This document shows positions 1-8,686 of a stretch of DNA of 8,686 bases, one piece after another (the first letter of the stretch is position 1; each line of letters opens with the position of its first letter). The position numbers were made by a program, and so were the translations under genes. Below the pieces are notes generated by a model. That model saw nothing but the letters and a program-made list of their open reading frames with translations, did no database searches and was not told where the DNA came from. Source of the DNA: a candidate division Zixibacteria bacterium SM23_81 (lineage in GTDB: Bacteria; SM23-81); NCBI GenBank assembly GCA_001304015.1, contig LJUY01000077.1, forward strand, positions 1 through 8,686. Direction: 5' to 3'.

Positions 1-489
1 ATTTGGCCGGGCCCGCACCACGGTGGTAAGCGCACGATCGGAACCCCCAAAATCGGGGACCAGGACCTCAACCCTGACCCCGGGAACGCGCCGCCGTATC
101 TCCGTAATAGTCTGTGCGAAGATCCCTGCGCCACCGTCGGGAAGGTCATCGCGGGTGACCGATGTGATGACCACGAAGCGAAGTCCCATCTTCTCCACCG
201 CCTCACCCACTCTTCCCGGCTCCTCGGGATCTGGCGGCCCCACCGGCCCATGGGCTACCGCGCAAAATCGACAGTTTCGCGTGCACCGATCCCCCAGGAT
301 GAGGAAGGTTGCGGTGCCACGAGAAAAACACTCCCCGAGATTGGGGCAAAGGGCCTCCTGACAGACGGTATGAAGCTGGCTACTCTGGAGGATCCGGTGC
401 ACTTCGTGATAGGTAGCCCCCCCGGGTATCCTCCGCTTCAGCCACGGCGGCTTTCTCAAACGAGGCCTCTGCTCACGCACTGGACTCAT
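1..489 (-). CDS. lipA: Lipoyl synthase LipA, radical SAM (3' part cut by left edge)
   Basis: LipA inserts two sulfur atoms into octanoyl groups on carrier proteins (GcvH, E2 subunits), completing lipoate made in place. The 163 visible residues hold both cluster motifs. The auxiliary cluster cysteines are C43, C48 and C54 in CQEALCPNLGEC, and the radical-SAM triad is C69, C73 and C76 in CTRNCRFC. TSVTRDDLPDGGA (about 109-121) is also characteristic of the family. A full LipA is near 290-320 residues, so roughly the last half lies beyond position 1, and the frame is open to the edge. The start ATG at 489 overlaps the lipB stop as ATGA and has an AGGGAGG ribosome site four bases upstream, which supports coupled translation. 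The N-terminal stretch RKPPWLKRRIP and the following motifs recall Desulfobacterota LipA proteins; this comparison is from memory. Identification is very secure. Confidence 0.97.
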   Translation of the reverse strand, partial: MSPVREQRPRLRKPPWLKRRIPGGATYHEVHRILQSSQLHTVCQEALCPNLGECFSRGTATFLILGDRCTRNCRFCAVAHGPVGPPDPEEPGRVGEAVEKMGLRFVVITSVTRDDLPDGGAGIFAQTITEIRRRVPGVRVEVLVPDFGGSDRALTTVVRARPN

Positions 490-1184
490 GCCGCCTCCCT
501 TACTATCCCCCGGGCCTTTGCGTCCAACAGGCGATGGATATCCTTCACGCTTACCATGTCCAATTCCACGCCGAAACCCTCCCGGATGTGTCGAGCAGCA
601 GCGCACCGAACCTCCTCCATGGGAATCTCCCTGCCCAGTATTCGTTTCAAGGAAGTGACCTGAATGCCCTCCAAACCACAAGGGTCAATCCACTGGAAGG
701 GCGCCAGCCATGTGTTCACATTGAGGGCGAATCCGTGGAAGCTAATCCCCCGGCGCACGGCTATCCCCACGCTCCCGATCTTGGAGGTTCCCACCCAGAC
801 ACCGCGATTCATGGAATTTCTCCCCGATCGGATTCCCCAGTCCGCCAAAGAGCGGATCATCACCTCCTCCAGGGCCTCCACGAAATCCAGCACCCTCCAC
901 CCATGGGCCTTCAGGTTCACGACGAGGTACCCCACGAGCTGCCCCGGGCCGTGGTACGTAATGTCCCCACCCCTTTCCACGTGGATAAGCGGGATTCCAC
1001 GCTCGGCCAAGAAGTCCTCGGACACCTTCAGGTGGTCTCGCCCCCCTCGATGCCCCAGCGTGAAGACGGGAGGATGTTCCAAGAGAAAGACGAAATCCGG
1101 GAGGCTCGCATGGCTGCCTTTGGCTTCCACCAGGCCGAGTTGGAGTCCCCACGCCTCCCGGTAGTCAATGGAAGGGGTCTCCAT
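486..1184 (-). CDS. lipB: Lipoyl(octanoyl) transferase LipB
   Basis: LipB moves octanoate from octanoyl-ACP to the lipoyl domain lysine of target proteins, the step before LipA. With the start at 1184 the protein is 232 residues, close to the usual 210-230. Motifs in order are LEHPPVFTLG (35-44), RGGDITYHGPGQ (71-82), the catalytic lysine K135 in SKIGSVGI, SFHGFALN (149-155 region) and the catalytic cysteine C169 in DPCG. The start at 1184 was chosen because GGGAAGGTGG lies just upstream with a six-base gap. An in-frame ATG at 1256 would add 24 residues and would retain more of the first beta strand (WFCMETPS), but it has no clear ribosome site. The frame stays open to 1382, but there it reads through the octamer repeat, so translation from that far up is unlikely. 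The stop overlaps the lipA start. Confidence 0.96.
   Translation of the reverse strand: METPSIDYREAWGLQLGLVEAKGSHASLPDFVFLLEHPPVFTLGHRGGRDHLKVSEDFLAERGIPLIHVERGGDITYHGPGQLVGYLVVNLKAHGWRVLDFVEALEEVMIRSLADWGIRSGRNSMNRGVWVGTSKIGSVGIAVRRGISFHGFALNVNTWLAPFQWIDPCGLEGIQVTSLKRILGREIPMEEVRCAAARHIREGFGVELDMVSVKDIHRLLDAKARGIVREAA
494..500 (-). promoter_or_regulatory. Ribosome binding site of lipA inside lipB
   Basis: AGGGAGG on the minus strand lies four bases before the lipA ATG and within the last codons of lipB. Together with the ATGA stop/start overlap it indicates translational coupling of the two lipoate genes. Confidence 0.7.
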
Positions 1185-1190
1185 ACAGAA

Positions 1191-1197
1191 CCACCTT
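1191..1197 (-). promoter_or_regulatory. Ribosome binding site deciding the lipB start at 1184
   Basis: AAGGTGG on the minus strand (one mismatch to AAGGAGG) lies six bases before the ATG at 1184. The alternative upstream ATG at 1256 is preceded by AACAGAATCTGTT without a purine-rich site at proper distance. This is the main reason for preferring the shorter LipB. Confidence 0.5.
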
Positions 1198-1296
1198 CCC
1201 GAGGCCGGAGTTTTCTGGTTTTTATTGAAAAGATTTCTGTAACTTCTTGATTTCATAACAGATTCTGTTTTTCCCAAGAGAACACCCTTGCCCCCG

Positions 1297-1410
1297 TGGA
1301 ATAATGGAATAGTGGAAAAGTGGAACACTGGATAGAGAAATCGGAAGGCACTGATCTTTTGTGTTCTCCCCCAGCCCATCACTCCAGTATTGCATTACTC
1401 CAATACGCCA
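1297..1410. repeat. Octamer-periodic imperfect inverted repeat (TGGAANNN units)
   Basis: The left arm (1297-1336) is five consecutive 8-base units: TGGAATAA, TGGAATAG, TGGAAAAG, TGGAACAC and TGGATAGA. The right arm (1371-1410), read on the minus strand from 1410, is again five consecutive 8-base units: TGGCGTAT, TGGAGTAA, TGCAATAC, TGGAGTGA and TGGGCTGG. Nine of ten units begin TGG. The arms are equal in length, inverted, and separated by a 34-base spacer (1337-1370). Unit-by-unit pairing of the arms matches at about 24 of 40 positions, so the element could fold as an imperfect hairpin. Similar strings of TGGAAT-type octamers are known to me from intergenic DNA of deltaproteobacterial genomes, but I cannot verify the family. 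It may be a small dispersed repeat or the relic of one. Confidence 0.75.
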
Positions 1411-3220: not shown

Positions 3221-6200
3221 ATGGCAGAAATCGATAAAGAGGCCATCCGAGAAGGCCTCATGAAAGCAGGTATTCCCGAATCCCGGATTGATATCAGTGA
3301 TGTCGGCTGCTTAGGGTATGCAATAGATGTAGGTCCTATCAGTCTCACACCCAAGGCAGTAGTAGGTGTGCGCAGTCATTCTGATGTAGCAAATGCCGTT
3401 AGATTTGCCTATGAGCACAATGTCCCCATTACTGCCAGGGGTGCAGGAAGCGGCTTGCCCGGTCAGTCAGTTGGCTCTGGCATTGTCCTCGATATGCGCT
3501 CCCTGGATGAGATGAAGGTCCTAGAAGATCATCCTGAGGGGGGAAAGATAGTCCATGCCCAATCTGGGGTAATCTTTACCAGATTGAACAATTTCCTGAA
3601 AGAATATGGCGTATTCTTAGCCTCTTATCCTGCCTCCGCAGATATGGCTACCATTGGCGGTAGTATTGCCAACAACGCTTCAGGTGCAAATTCCTGCAAG
3701 TTGGGCACTACACAGCATCAGGTTATGGATTTACACGTTGTCTTGGCTGATGGAACAAGCTTATGGACCTCGGAGATTGAATCTGACAAGCAACCCTGGA
3801 AGAAAATTCTAGAGCTCGTCCGGCAAAACAAAGATGCGATCGAGAGAGACTTCCCCAGAGTGCCTAAGAATTCCTCAGGCTATAATGTTTTCGATATCTT
3901 AAAACAGCTTGAGAAAGGCATCCCCGTTGACTGGACCAGACTCTTCGCCCACTCTGAAGGCACTTTAGGCATTATCACCGAGGCCAAAATAAGGGCAGTG
4001 CCTCTGGCCACACAAAAGGCTACCTGCATTGTCTACTTCACAGATTTAAGAAAGGCCTGCGGGGCGATACCTAAGATTTATAACCTGGGCCCATCCTGTT
4101 TTGATACAGCGGTAACCACCAATCTTGACCTCATCAGAAAGACCTTTCCACAACTTGGCATACGCGAAGATGCCAAAGTAATGTACATCATTGAGTTCGA
4201 TGATGTAGAAGTAAAACCAGATCCCCATGACCCAGCCAAAAGAATCGGCCAGGTGAGTCTCATGGATGAAGGGACTGCCACTGGCCTCATCGAAAGTCAG
4301 GTAGAGTCATTAAAGGGACTACTGGAAGAAGAATATCCCGAATCAGCTATTGGTTTTGAAGTGGCCAGGGACCCAGCAAGACAAGATGCCCTCTGGCTGG
4401 GAAGGAGAAGCGCCTTACAGGTCCTTTACGCCTATGACCCGGGGAAAAGACCGCTTACCATGATTGAGTGTGTGGTCTTACCCAGGGATGAGAAAAAACT
4501 CCTGGAATTTATCAGTTATATGGAAGAGGTGTTTGACGAAGAGCACGTTGTGGCTGGTACCCACGGACATGCAGGAGACTGTAACTTCCATCTCTACCTC
4601 CTCCTCAACCTAAGCCAACAGCAAGACAGGCAGAAACTGATTAATGTGATGACCAAAATTACGCAAAAGGTAGCCGAACTTGGCGGCAGTATGAGCGGTG
4701 AACATGCCGATGGAAGGACCAGAGGGAAAATTTTACCTCATGTGTTTGGGCTGGATCTCTTTGACCTATTCGTTGAAATAAAAGACCTTATGGATACAAA
4801 GAATATCTTACATCCAGGGGTTAAGATTATTAGAGATGCTCGCGGTAAAGACCTTCATCAGGCAATAGAAGAGTTAGTAGGCATAGAAGCGAAAGCAAGC
4901 CAGCTTAATCTCGACCGCTTTCAAGACTTTTCACATCTATTTACCGGTGTCTGTTCCGTCTGTTCTCAATGTGCTGATATCTGTCCCATATTCCGAAAAC
5001 TCCCGGATCAATTCAGCGCCCGCTCCCAGGCTGCTCCTACGTTCAAGCGTGCCCTAGCCATGGCCCTGGAAATGGACAAAGACTTAGAAACCATCAAAGA
5101 TGATCCCCTGTTTAAAAAGATATACGAGCTCTGTCTACTCTGCGGTCAATGCACCTTTAAATGTCCCACCAATGCCAGTATACGGGATTTGGTAATAAAG
5201 ATAAGGGAGGACCAGCGGAGCAGGGTCATAGCCCCGGCAATCTCTTATATTAGGTCTCATCCAGCACTCTATAAATTATCGATCAATTTACTTGGCTTAA
5301 CTCAAGGTATCTGGCGTAATCGATTAAGCCGCAGGATTATCTCTGCCCTGCCTCAGGGATTCCTTCCCACCTCTATTCCCTATCAGCGCTACTTGCCAAC
5401 GTTGTCTTGGTCGAGCTTAGAAGGGAGACACCCGGAACTCGTCGATGTCTCAGCCTCTCAGGCAGATATTGCCTACTTCTATGGCTGTAGTTCCGATCTC
5501 CTCTCAGAACCAATTGCGGATAGCTTTATCACTATCGCCAGACATAATAACTGGAAGGTATCCTTGCCTACCCAGCGCTGTTGTGGTGAGCCCTTCGCTG
5601 CCCAGGGTAACGTAGAAGAATACCACAGGCTCGCCAGATTTAATATTGACCAACTCCTGGACTACAAATACATCATTGCACACTGTCCATCCTGTATCTT
5701 AGGCTTTAAGGAATATGCCAAAGACTTTGGCCGAATTAACGATAAGGCCTATGAGAAAAAGGCTCAGGCCCTGGTTGAGAAAATCTTTGAACCTGCCCAG
5801 TTCATTATGGAAGTAATCGGGCCTGACAATCTGAAACCGCCTACGAGTGAGCTTAAACAAAAGGTAACGGTGCATTTGTCTTGCCATGAAAAGTTAGGCC
5901 AGAAGATGACTGTTACCCCTAACTACACCCGAGACCTGCTTAATCTTATACCTGGCCTAGAAATAGTGGAAATGCAGGGAGCTGATGAGTGCTGTGGCCT
6001 CGCTGGTCCTTGGGGCCTTGGCCGCCACTATGATTTAGCCACAAAGCTGCGGGAGGATAAGATTAGTAATATCATAAACTCTAAAGCAGACATTGTCGTA
6101 AGCTGGTGCTTGGGCTGTATGCTGCAGATGAGAGACGGCCTTATGCAGGCAGGAAGCACTATTCGGGCAAGGCACCCCTTAGAACTGTTAAGCCAGGCCT

Positions 6201-6229
6201 ACGACCAACATAACCCATTATCGGAGTAG
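3221..6229 (+). CDS. FAD-linked oxidoreductase with 2[4Fe-4S] and two CCG domains (GlcD-GlcF / D-lactate dehydrogenase type)
   Basis: This 1002-residue protein joins a GlcD-like flavin half to a GlcF-like electron-transfer half. Enzymes of this kind oxidise D-2-hydroxyacids (glycolate, D-lactate, 2-hydroxyglutarate). The FAD domain shows TARGAGSGLPGQSV (71-84), ATIGGSIANNASG (143-155) and SEGTLGIITEA (245-255). The FAD-oxidase C-terminal domain shows GTHGHAGDCNFH (446-457) and GEHADGRTRG (493-502). Two ferredoxin-type clusters follow: C578, C581, C584, C588 and C638, C641, C644, C648. Two CCG domains carry C756, C787-C788, C822, C825 and C888, C924-C925, C963, C966, the pattern of HdrB-like non-cubane clusters. 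No signal peptide or clear membrane helix is seen, so it is probably cytosolic or peripheral. Size and order resemble YdiJ. The usual GDGN is GDCN here (C454). No Etf or partner gene is adjacent. The exact substrate and electron acceptor are unknown. Confidence 0.93.
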   Translation: MAEIDKEAIREGLMKAGIPESRIDISDVGCLGYAIDVGPISLTPKAVVGVRSHSDVANAVRFAYEHNVPITARGAGSGLPGQSVGSGIVLDMRSLDEMKVLEDHPEGGKIVHAQSGVIFTRLNNFLKEYGVFLASYPASADMATIGGSIANNASGANSCKLGTTQHQVMDLHVVLADGTSLWTSEIESDKQPWKKILELVRQNKDAIERDFPRVPKNSSGYNVFDILKQLEKGIPVDWTRLFAHSEGTLGIITEAKIRAVPLATQKATCIVYFTDLRKACGAIPKIYNLGPSCFDTAVTTNLDLIRKTFPQLGIREDAKVMYIIEFDDVEVKPDPHDPAKRIGQVSLMDEGTATGLIESQVESLKGLLEEEYPESAIGFEVARDPARQDALWLGRRSALQVLYAYDPGKRPLTMIECVVLPRDEKKLLEFISYMEEVFDEEHVVAGTHGHAGDCNFHLYLLLNLSQQQDRQKLINVMTKITQKVAELGGSMSGEHADGRTRGKILPHVFGLDLFDLFVEIKDLMDTKNILHPGVKIIRDARGKDLHQAIEELVGIEAKASQLNLDRFQDFSHLFTGVCSVCSQCADICPIFRKLPDQFSARSQAAPTFKRALAMALEMDKDLETIKDDPLFKKIYELCLLCGQCTFKCPTNASIRDLVIKIREDQRSRVIAPAISYIRSHPALYKLSINLLGLTQGIWRNRLSRRIISALPQGFLPTSIPYQRYLPTLSWSSLEGRHPELVDVSASQADIAYFYGCSSDLLSEPIADSFITIARHNNWKVSLPTQRCCGEPFAAQGNVEEYHRLARFNIDQLLDYKYIIAHCPSCILGFKEYAKDFGRINDKAYEKKAQALVEKIFEPAQFIMEVIGPDNLKPPTSELKQKVTVHLSCHEKLGQKMTVTPNYTRDLLNLIPGLEIVEMQGADECCGLAGPWGLGRHYDLATKLREDKISNIINSKADIVVSWCLGCMLQMRDGLMQAGSTIRARHPLELLSQAYDQHNPLSE

Positions 6230-6338: not shown

Positions 6339-8686
6339 TCATCTCGCTTCGCGGAGAAGCTGGTGAAGCTTCTCCATAACGTCTGCGTATTCGTTGCCAC
6401 GGAAGCAGAACTGAAGCTCGGAGAACCGTTCCCTCAGCGCCTTGATCTGATCGGCCACGTTGGCTTTGTTCATCACTACGTCGTGAATCAGCAAAGCCAG
6501 GTCGCGGAAGCCGTCTTCTCCCATACCGAAGCGAGTCATCTCGGATACGCCCATCCGCAGAGACCCTGAGGCGGTGAAGCCCTCTTCGTCTGGGCTGGCC
6601 TGATAGTTGCAAATGATGTTGTTGGCCTCGAGTCGGCTAGCGATTTCCGGGCCGTGGCCGTAACCCACATTCACCACCACCTGGTGTGTTTCGGTAAAGT
6701 CAATAGTTGGATCGCCAGCGACATCCAGGCCGTAGTCCTTCATCGCTCTGGCGAACGCCTTGGCGTTGGCGATCACCCTGGGCTGATATTCGTCCTTAAA
6801 GTGGTTCATCTCGTAGGCGGCTATCAGGAGTCCCAGCAAGGTGCCGAGGTGGTGGTTGGAAACCGAGCCGGGGAATGATCGCCGATAGAGGGCCTTCCAG
6901 AGCTCGTAACGTTCCTCGTGCTCCTGGAACCTACTGCCCACAACGCCACGCTGGGTGCCGAAGAACGTCTTGTGCGTCGAGCCGGTCACGAGGTCCGCCC
7001 CTTCGGCAAACGGCCGTTGAAAGTGTGGGCCGATGAGCCCGAGCACGTGGGCCATATCGTACATCACCACGGCGTCAATACCCTGGGCGTCAAGGAATTG
7101 GCAGATCTCAGCTACCGGTTCTTTGTGGAGGACCATACTCTTGCCGAAGATGATCAGCTCCGGTCGATATTCATCGATGAGTTCCAGTGTGACTGACACG
7201 TCAATGTTGTGGGGATTGTCGGCCAGCACCGGGAAATTTACCACAGCCGGGCGCTCCGTGCGCGGGTCATGGGCGACAAAGTCCTTGAGGGCGCCCATCG
7301 GCTGAGCGCTGAGGTGACCACCCTTGCCAATGTGGTTGTTCATAACCTGGCGAATTCGCCGCGGTTCGCGCTTGCGGTCTGCGCGGTTGATGTAATCCAC
7401 CATCGCGCTGAACACGGCTGTGTTGGCCATTTGTCCGCTGATGAGGCGCATCTCCACTTCCTCGCATCCCAGGAACTTCCTCATCTCCTCATCCAGCAGC
7501 CGCTCAACCTCGCTGATGAACTTTGTGCCCTGGTAGTAGAAGATGTCGGCCTCGTAGAAGGCTTCCAACTTTCTGTGCTCGGCGTAGCGGAAGGCCGGGT
7601 CCATAACCGAAACCAACCGGGCCATCGGCGAGATCGTCATCTCCGAGGGAATAAGGTTGATGCACTCCCGCTGTCGCCAGCGTGTATTCTCCACCGTCTT
7701 TTCCAGAAGGCGCCGCACGTTGGTCGGCGTATCGCCGGTTGGCAGCTCCTCGGCCTCCAGCTTGTGATCGAAGACGATGGGGCGAGCGTACGGAGGTGCA
7801 TCACTGCGCATGTGGAACGGGACAACCACACCATCGACTGCCTTGCCCCGAATATCAATGGTGACCTTCTCGTCCTCGATTATGTCGCTGTCGATATAGG
7901 CCAGGCAGATCGGCCGAAGCTCCCGCTGGTCGCCCTGGGTGGAGGCCAAACCTTGGCCTTCCACGGCCCACATGGGAATCATCGTGCCGCTGGTCACGTA
8001 GCCCACGTGCGTGCCATCTTTGAACACCTTGGCCCCCTCACGGGCAATGCCTCGACCTGCCACCGCAATCGACCAGATTAGGCGAGGCAGGTCCGCAATC
8101 ATCGAGTAATCGCGGGCAATAATTCTTCCCAGTGCCTCAAATTGCCTGGCCAGAGCAGCCCGGCCAACGAACTCGCCCTTGAGTGGTGAAAAGCTCACGC
8201 CGAACTTCACCTGTGGGCAGGCCATCATGGGGATTTCATTGCCCTCGTGGTCTTCACCCAGCTCATGGCCATAAAGCGGGAGGCCGGCTTCGAGGCGAAG
8301 CGTGTCCCGTGCACCGAGGCCAATGGGCGTTGCTCCCCTGGCAACGAGTTGGTCCCACAGCATCAGGCCGTCTTCTCCGCTGGCGAAGAGCTCGAAACAC
8401 ACGGGCTCGCCCGTGTAGCCGGTGCGGGCCACCAGCACTTTGGCACCGGAGATCGTTACAACACTTACTGCATTTCGCATGGGCTCTGGAGGCGGGCCGG
8501 ACTGGATGATCTCTCCCATCAGATCGCGCGACATCGGCCCCTGAAGTGCAAGCATGGCGATCTCCTTGGTGCGGTCGGTCATCTCAACGTCATCGAAATC
8601 CTTGAGAAACGACTGGAGGTGCTCCCAGTCCTTCTGGCGGTTGGCGGCGTTGACCACCAAGAGATATTCATCCTCGACGAAGTGAT
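6339..8686 (-). CDS. gcvT-glyA: GcvT-SHMT fusion: aminomethyltransferase + serine hydroxymethyltransferase (5' end cut by right edge)
   Basis: One uninterrupted frame of 781 visible residues carries two enzymes of one-carbon metabolism. Visible residues 1 to about 300 are glycine-cleavage T protein: DEYLLVVNAANRQKD, LALQGPMSRDLM, ARTGYTGEPVCFEL, GLGARDTLRLEAGLPLYG, then the C-terminal barrel with GYVTSGTMIPM and ICLAYIDSD. From about 320 to the end is a PLP-dependent SHMT: INLIPSE, FYYQGTKFISEVE, DMAHVLGLIG (D543, H546), the Schiff-base lysine K572 in GSTHKTFFGTQRG, FPGSVSNHHLG and the carboxylate arginine R710 in SGSLRMGV. T protein releases methylene-tetrahydropterin and ammonia from aminomethyl-lipoyl-GcvH; SHMT condenses that C1 unit with glycine to serine. 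About 90-100 T-protein residues, including the region of the catalytic aspartate, lie beyond position 8686. The frame stays open to the edge; a TTG at 8660 is inside the T-protein fold and is not a start. The last 40 residues form a charged, probably helical tail. Confidence 0.93.
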   Translation of the reverse strand, partial: HFVEDEYLLVVNAANRQKDWEHLQSFLKDFDDVEMTDRTKEIAMLALQGPMSRDLMGEIIQSGPPPEPMRNAVSVVTISGAKVLVARTGYTGEPVCFELFASGEDGLMLWDQLVARGATPIGLGARDTLRLEAGLPLYGHELGEDHEGNEIPMMACPQVKFGVSFSPLKGEFVGRAALARQFEALGRIIARDYSMIADLPRLIWSIAVAGRGIAREGAKVFKDGTHVGYVTSGTMIPMWAVEGQGLASTQGDQRELRPICLAYIDSDIIEDEKVTIDIRGKAVDGVVVPFHMRSDAPPYARPIVFDHKLEAEELPTGDTPTNVRRLLEKTVENTRWRQRECINLIPSEMTISPMARLVSVMDPAFRYAEHRKLEAFYEADIFYYQGTKFISEVERLLDEEMRKFLGCEEVEMRLISGQMANTAVFSAMVDYINRADRKREPRRIRQVMNNHIGKGGHLSAQPMGALKDFVAHDPRTERPAVVNFPVLADNPHNIDVSVTLELIDEYRPELIIFGKSMVLHKEPVAEICQFLDAQGIDAVVMYDMAHVLGLIGPHFQRPFAEGADLVTGSTHKTFFGTQRGVVGSRFQEHEERYELWKALYRRSFPGSVSNHHLGTLLGLLIAAYEMNHFKDEYQPRVIANAKAFARAMKDYGLDVAGDPTIDFTETHQVVVNVGYGHGPEIASRLEANNIICNYQASPDEEGFTASGSLRMGVSEMTRFGMGEDGFRDLALLIHDVVMNKANVADQIKALRERFSELQFCFRGNEYADVMEKLHQLLREAR

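Follow-up and report, generated by a model that had tools for sequence, protein, structure and literature searches.

A single-chain GcvT-SHMT fusion in bacteria and its predicted role in glycine cleavage

The window, that is, the whole stretch of DNA analysed here, is a contig of exactly 8,686 bases that carries a 5'-truncated GcvT-SHMT fusion gene on its minus strand (6339-8684). Translation of the open reading frames of the window gives a single frame of 781 amino acids with zero internal stops. Because the contig stops inside the gene, the 5' end is lost, and with it the start codon. The Pfam domains GCV_T, GCV_T_C and SHMT follow one another in this order along the window protein. The GCV_T match (residues 4-150, E = 2.9e-37) spans profile positions 101-249, and the first ~100 positions are therefore absent from the window copy; GCV_T_C is matched at E = 2.2e-9, whereas SHMT is matched over residues 329-731 (E = 3.4e-32) with 112 bits against a PF00464 cut-off of 27. 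The T-protein half, delimited by Pfam and by motifs, lies at 7785-8684 without its first ~106 residues and contains the motifs RTGYTGE (8406-8426) and GARDTLRLEAG (8283-8315). It is followed by an inter-domain linker (residues about 301-326, at about 7707-7784), whose counterpart in a modelled homologue has low confidence, and by the SHMT-like half (6339-7706). The latter contains the PLP lysine (6969-6971) and residues resembling Glu57 (7578-7580), His126 (7314-7316), Asp200 (7056-7058) and Arg363 (6555-6557), all on the minus strand; these E. coli residue numbers were set by motif, without direct alignment to E. coli SHMT. The preliminary description of this DNA had read GcvT and SHMT folds in one stop-free frame, with a junction near 7727 and no internal ribosome site, and each point is borne out: the frame and its three Pfam domains are as described, and the junction falls inside the linker. 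In-frame GTG and ATG codons do occur nearby, such as the GTG at 7716-7718, but none has a well-spaced Shine-Dalgarno sequence, and an internal start giving a separate SHMT was rejected.

The other genes of the window include two for lipoylation, namely lipA, encoding lipoyl synthase and cut by the contig end (1-681, minus strand), and lipB, encoding octanoyltransferase (486-1382, minus strand). LipB is needed for lipoylation of GcvH. A class I/II aminotransferase is encoded at 1504-2802 on the minus strand, and aminotransferases that group loosely with it (30-40% identical) are found near the fusion in six relatives. On the plus strand, opposite to the fusion, 3221-6229 encodes a GlcD/LdhH-like protein of 1002 amino acids with FAD-linked oxidase, Fe-S and CCG domains. 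This protein scores far under every curated NCBIfam cut-off and may be a glycolate, lactate or 2-hydroxyglutarate dehydrogenase. The G+C content is 59% in the fusion gene and 48% in the neighbouring FAD oxidase gene.

The window contig is an outlier in its own genome and looks foreign. The bin to which it belongs has separate gcvT (C40), glyA (C49) and gcvPA/gcvPB (C33) genes, and the fusion is absent from the three compared relatives of the sparsely sampled phylum of the bin, which have a separate GcvT. The window lipB likewise lacks a counterpart in these three genomes. The window fusion is 81% identical to copies from Desulfobacterales, whereas its contig neighbour lipB shares only about 53% identity with its Desulfobacterales counterparts. 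Gene transfer and mis-binning are both possible, and the reality of the fusion is unaffected by either.

Scanning a single genome of each species yielded 80 related loci, all of which match nearly the whole query, including both halves, at 54-81% identity. Because these 80 relatives match over both halves, chance and assembly error are excluded, and the fusion is real. In 76 of these loci, ORF calling recovered one continuous frame, which measures about 883 amino acids when complete. Among the four others, G016 and G028 each hold both domains in a frame free of stops. The preliminary description had weighed the prospect that relatives always have the two genes split by a stop at the junction; this is not the case, as 76 of the 80 are continuous and the other four match both halves. 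Its belief that fusions of this type occur in anaerobic lineages is confirmed. The fusion was found in at least eight bacterial groups: carriers include many Desulfobacterota as well as Planctomycetota, Actinomycetota (Thermoleophilia), Clostridia with Oscillospiraceae, Firestonebacteria, Poribacteria, Abyssobacteria, Nitrospiria and Calditrichales. One carrier, Desulforhopalus singaporensis DSM 12130, is a named isolate and has the full-length gene at L060:2701-5352. When 395 genomes of the phylum to which D. singaporensis belongs were sampled evenly, 35 had a fusion-type SHMT half, counted over 450 bits, and in 33 of these the frame was at least 744 amino acids long. In the open-access literature, none of the titles or abstracts listed for the searches mentions a GcvT-SHMT fusion, although subscription papers could describe one, and a term search of the text of a paper on the glycine pathway of Desulfobacterota returned neither 'fusion' nor 'fused' (PMC12827605).

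The genes that surround the fusion belong to glycine cleavage, lipoylation and, in a few relatives only, serine metabolism. Within the fetched stretches of 77 loci, window included, gcvPA is near the fusion in 32, gcvPB in 28, gcvH in 28, lipB in 19, lipA in 12 and lpd in 9. These glycine cleavage and lipoylation neighbours often form one operon, or a divergent pair, with the fusion. As for serine metabolism, an L-serine ammonia-lyase lies directly upstream of the fusion in D. singaporensis (L060), L033 has genes for a SerK-like protein and a SerB-like phosphatase downstream of it, from clusters that recur in L031, L036 and L053, and a glycerate 2-kinase is an operon mate in L050; most of the SerK, SerB and kinase names come from matches under curated cut-offs. 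A further locus (L038:2807-4006) encodes, between the fusion and gcvH, a protein of 399 amino acids with a PGDH N-terminal and an SbnI/SerK-like domain.

The T half is very probably the T-protein of those carriers that have no other. The fusion is the sole GCV_T protein in 31 of 47 carrier genomes, and 30 of these 31 encode the P-protein (GDC-P); the T half therefore very probably serves as the T-protein of these genomes, unless every missing T gene happens to fall in an assembly gap. Relatives encode the T half with GcvH and GcvP and no replacement T-protein, whereas the bin of the window does hold its separate gcvT. The glycine cleavage role first proposed for the gene is thus backed by the gene context and genome content of relatives. 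The curated gcvT models agree in full-length relatives: L005 and L060 score 309.5 and 319.4 with NF001567 (cut-off 300), and 252.9 and 270.3 with TIGR00528 (cut-off 235.85), whereas the truncated window copy by itself falls under the NCBIfam gcvT cut-offs. The folate and active-site motifs of T-proteins are kept, namely the xDD aspartate, RTGYTGE and GARDTLRLEA; the xDD aspartates were read in relatives, as the window copy is without that part. One carrier, G009, is a single-contig assembly of 5.1 Mb in which the fusion (L122:16095-18746) is the only GCV_T protein, and no match to a glycine decarboxylase P-protein was found in it.

The SHMT half is a divergent, archaeal-like type rather than a captured GlyA. 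It scores 240-246 bits with the canonical GlyA model NF000586, under the cut-off of 335. In trees, the fusion SHMT, its free-standing cousins and the SHMT of Methanocaldococcus jannaschii stand apart from canonical GlyA with support of 100/100, which rules out derivation from the GlyA of the host. In the first tree, a transaldolase fragment and L129 paired by long-branch attraction, and both were omitted from the second. The PLP lysine and the Glu57-, His126-, Asp200- and Arg363-like positions do not vary among 36 homologues and occur in the window copy as well, whereas the asparagine of the canonical pterin loop, NKN(S/T), is replaced in the alignment by a glutamine that is invariant across the fusion family. 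A strong match to ordinary GlyA is also present in 40 of 50 carriers, so that the SHMT half usually represents an additional SHMT, one linked to glycine cleavage. Among 395 genomes of one phylum, about 15 have free-standing archaeal-like SHMTs of 416-456 amino acids (loci L119, L120, L126 and L146-L149). A free-standing, fusion-type SHMT of 480 amino acids, 53% identical to the SHMT half, is encoded in G187 (L142:6859-8301, contig C189) with no gcvT beside it; the 8.9 Mb genome also holds a more distant SHMT cousin. In the tree this protein falls at the base of the fusion clade, where branching is not resolved, and so may represent a relative from before the fusion or the product of a subsequent split.

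A full homologue modelled with AlphaFold gave a pLDDT of 83.9 and a pTM of 0.80, with a linker of low confidence. In this model, the T half matches T-proteins (TMt 0.87-0.89) and the SHMT half matches the M. jannaschii enzyme (TMt about 0.80-0.84); the pTM suggests that the halves have a preferred arrangement. Distances between pairs of sequences in one half correlate with those in the other (r = 0.84, 0/2000 permutations), as would be expected if the halves stayed joined, and shared ancestry of separate genes would raise r too.

Taken with the gene context, these features make it reasonably likely that the fusion is a bifunctional T-protein/SHMT of the glycine cleavage system, with both activities, the direction and any folate hand-over being predictions. 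The T half would transfer the aminomethyl group from lipoylated GcvH to tetrahydrofolate (THF), releasing 5,10-methylene-THF and NH3. The PLP-dependent SHMT half would then combine methylene-THF with a second glycine to yield serine and THF, and the freed folate would go back to the T half. Acting with GcvP, GcvH and Lpd, the fusion would overall convert two glycines to serine, CO2, NH3 and NADH, and serine could pass on to pyruvate or 3-phosphoglycerate. The serine ammonia-lyase, SerK-like and SerB proteins and glycerate kinase found as operon partners fit such a role. Since a hand-over would be useful only for the conversion of two glycines to serine or its exact reverse, and since some neighbours use serine, the evidence points to glycine assimilation through serine. 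Several observations count against the bifunctional reading: the sub-cut-off score of the SHMT half, its resemblance to transaldolases, the pterin-loop glutamine, the GlyA of 40 out of 50 carriers and the G009 carrier without a P-protein match. More tentatively, and with rather less than even expectation, the fusion may be a channelling synthase, in which methylene-THF would pass from the T site to the SHMT site of the same chain or of a dimer partner, skipping the free pool, and a fusion-specific insertion beside the YAE motif would help form the path.

A distinct possibility, if not the favoured one, is that both halves are active and that joining them provides only matched dose and proximity, the methylene-folate mixing with the cell pool without hand-over. 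The low-confidence linker between the halves, the fact that T-proteins and SHMTs work as separate proteins in most organisms and the free-standing SHMT of the same clade in G187 all agree with this. It explains less well, however, why the fusion is kept over many phyla alongside a retained GlyA, and the preferred arrangement suggested by the pTM also counts against it. An unlikely alternative to glycine assimilation is that the enzyme runs in the reverse sense, the SHMT half releasing methylene-THF from serine and the T half using it with CO2 and NH3 to form glycine, or that it serves the reductive glycine pathway. Every step is reversible, and this pathway has been discussed for Desulfobacterota (PMC12827605). 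In formate assimilation, however, both halves would consume methylene-THF made elsewhere, so that joining them gives no hand-over; on this logic the pathway is disfavoured as the reason for joining, and some neighbours (serine ammonia-lyase, SerK-like) consume serine.

It is still less probable that the substrate of the SHMT half is a different aldehyde or alpha-amino acid, which would make it an aldolase or transaldolase, or that it uses a different pterin. The nearest solved SHMT comes from a methanogen whose SHMT uses methanopterin; there are also weak matches to the fluorothreonine transaldolase family TIGR04506 (135 bits for the window protein, cut-off 650) and to the L-threonine transaldolase 7k34, and carriers usually have a normal GlyA too. 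On the other side, the folate site retains its Glu57-like position and its paired tyrosines, glutamine is a conservative replacement for the pterin-loop asparagine, the T-protein joined to the SHMT half is of the folate type and the neighbours belong to the glycine cleavage system and serine metabolism. Finally, that the window gene is an assembly chimera or a lone frameshift, as a short contig ending within the gene and a bin with 4% contamination might suggest, has a negligible chance, being ruled out by the 80 relatives, which come from independent assemblies, among them that of the isolate D. singaporensis, and all share this junction.

It has long been asked whether the single folate that glycine decarboxylase and SHMT share in photorespiration and one-carbon metabolism is handed over directly or exchanged via a pool. 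To our knowledge, a channelling fusion would be the first natural single-chain link of the glycine cleavage system to SHMT, and a natural one-chain version makes hand-over directly testable. The fusion is also a ready part for engineering glycine assimilation. Because only the T half clears NCBIfam cut-offs, automated annotation would probably name the fusion GcvT only, a possible source of error when SHMT genes and glycine pathways are counted in anaerobes.

Compared with known systems, the T half shares its fold and motifs with the GcvT structures of T. maritima (1woo), B. subtilis (1yx2) and E. coli (3a8i) and is 34-35% identical to the first two; unlike these plain GcvT proteins, the fusion has a C-terminal SHMT domain of ~460 residues. 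The SHMT half shares its superfamily and catalytic positions with canonical bacterial GlyA (NF000586, PF00464) but is about 28% identical to the GlyA of the host bin. M. jannaschii SHMT (4bhd, 4uqv) is its nearest solved relative by profile (E = 6e-73) and also by fold, and the two have the STHKTFFG motif in common. The fusion differs from it in a 7-residue insertion right after the YAE motif, in more insertions around 'NRADRKxE...' and 'xDFVARDP' and in being joined to GcvT. The L-threonine/fluorothreonine transaldolases (7k34 ObaG, TIGR04506) have a related SHMT-like fold but match more weakly, and the pterin-loop asparagine or glutamine is absent from ObaG in the alignment. Dimethylglycine oxidase/dehydrogenase, sarcosine oxidase alpha and TMAO demethylase also combine a GcvT-like folate-binding domain with another enzyme in one chain, and their GcvT-like domain is thought to capture a one-carbon unit. 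In those fusions the partner produces the one-carbon unit, whereas in the GcvT-SHMT fusion the T half is predicted to make methylene-folate and the partner to use it.
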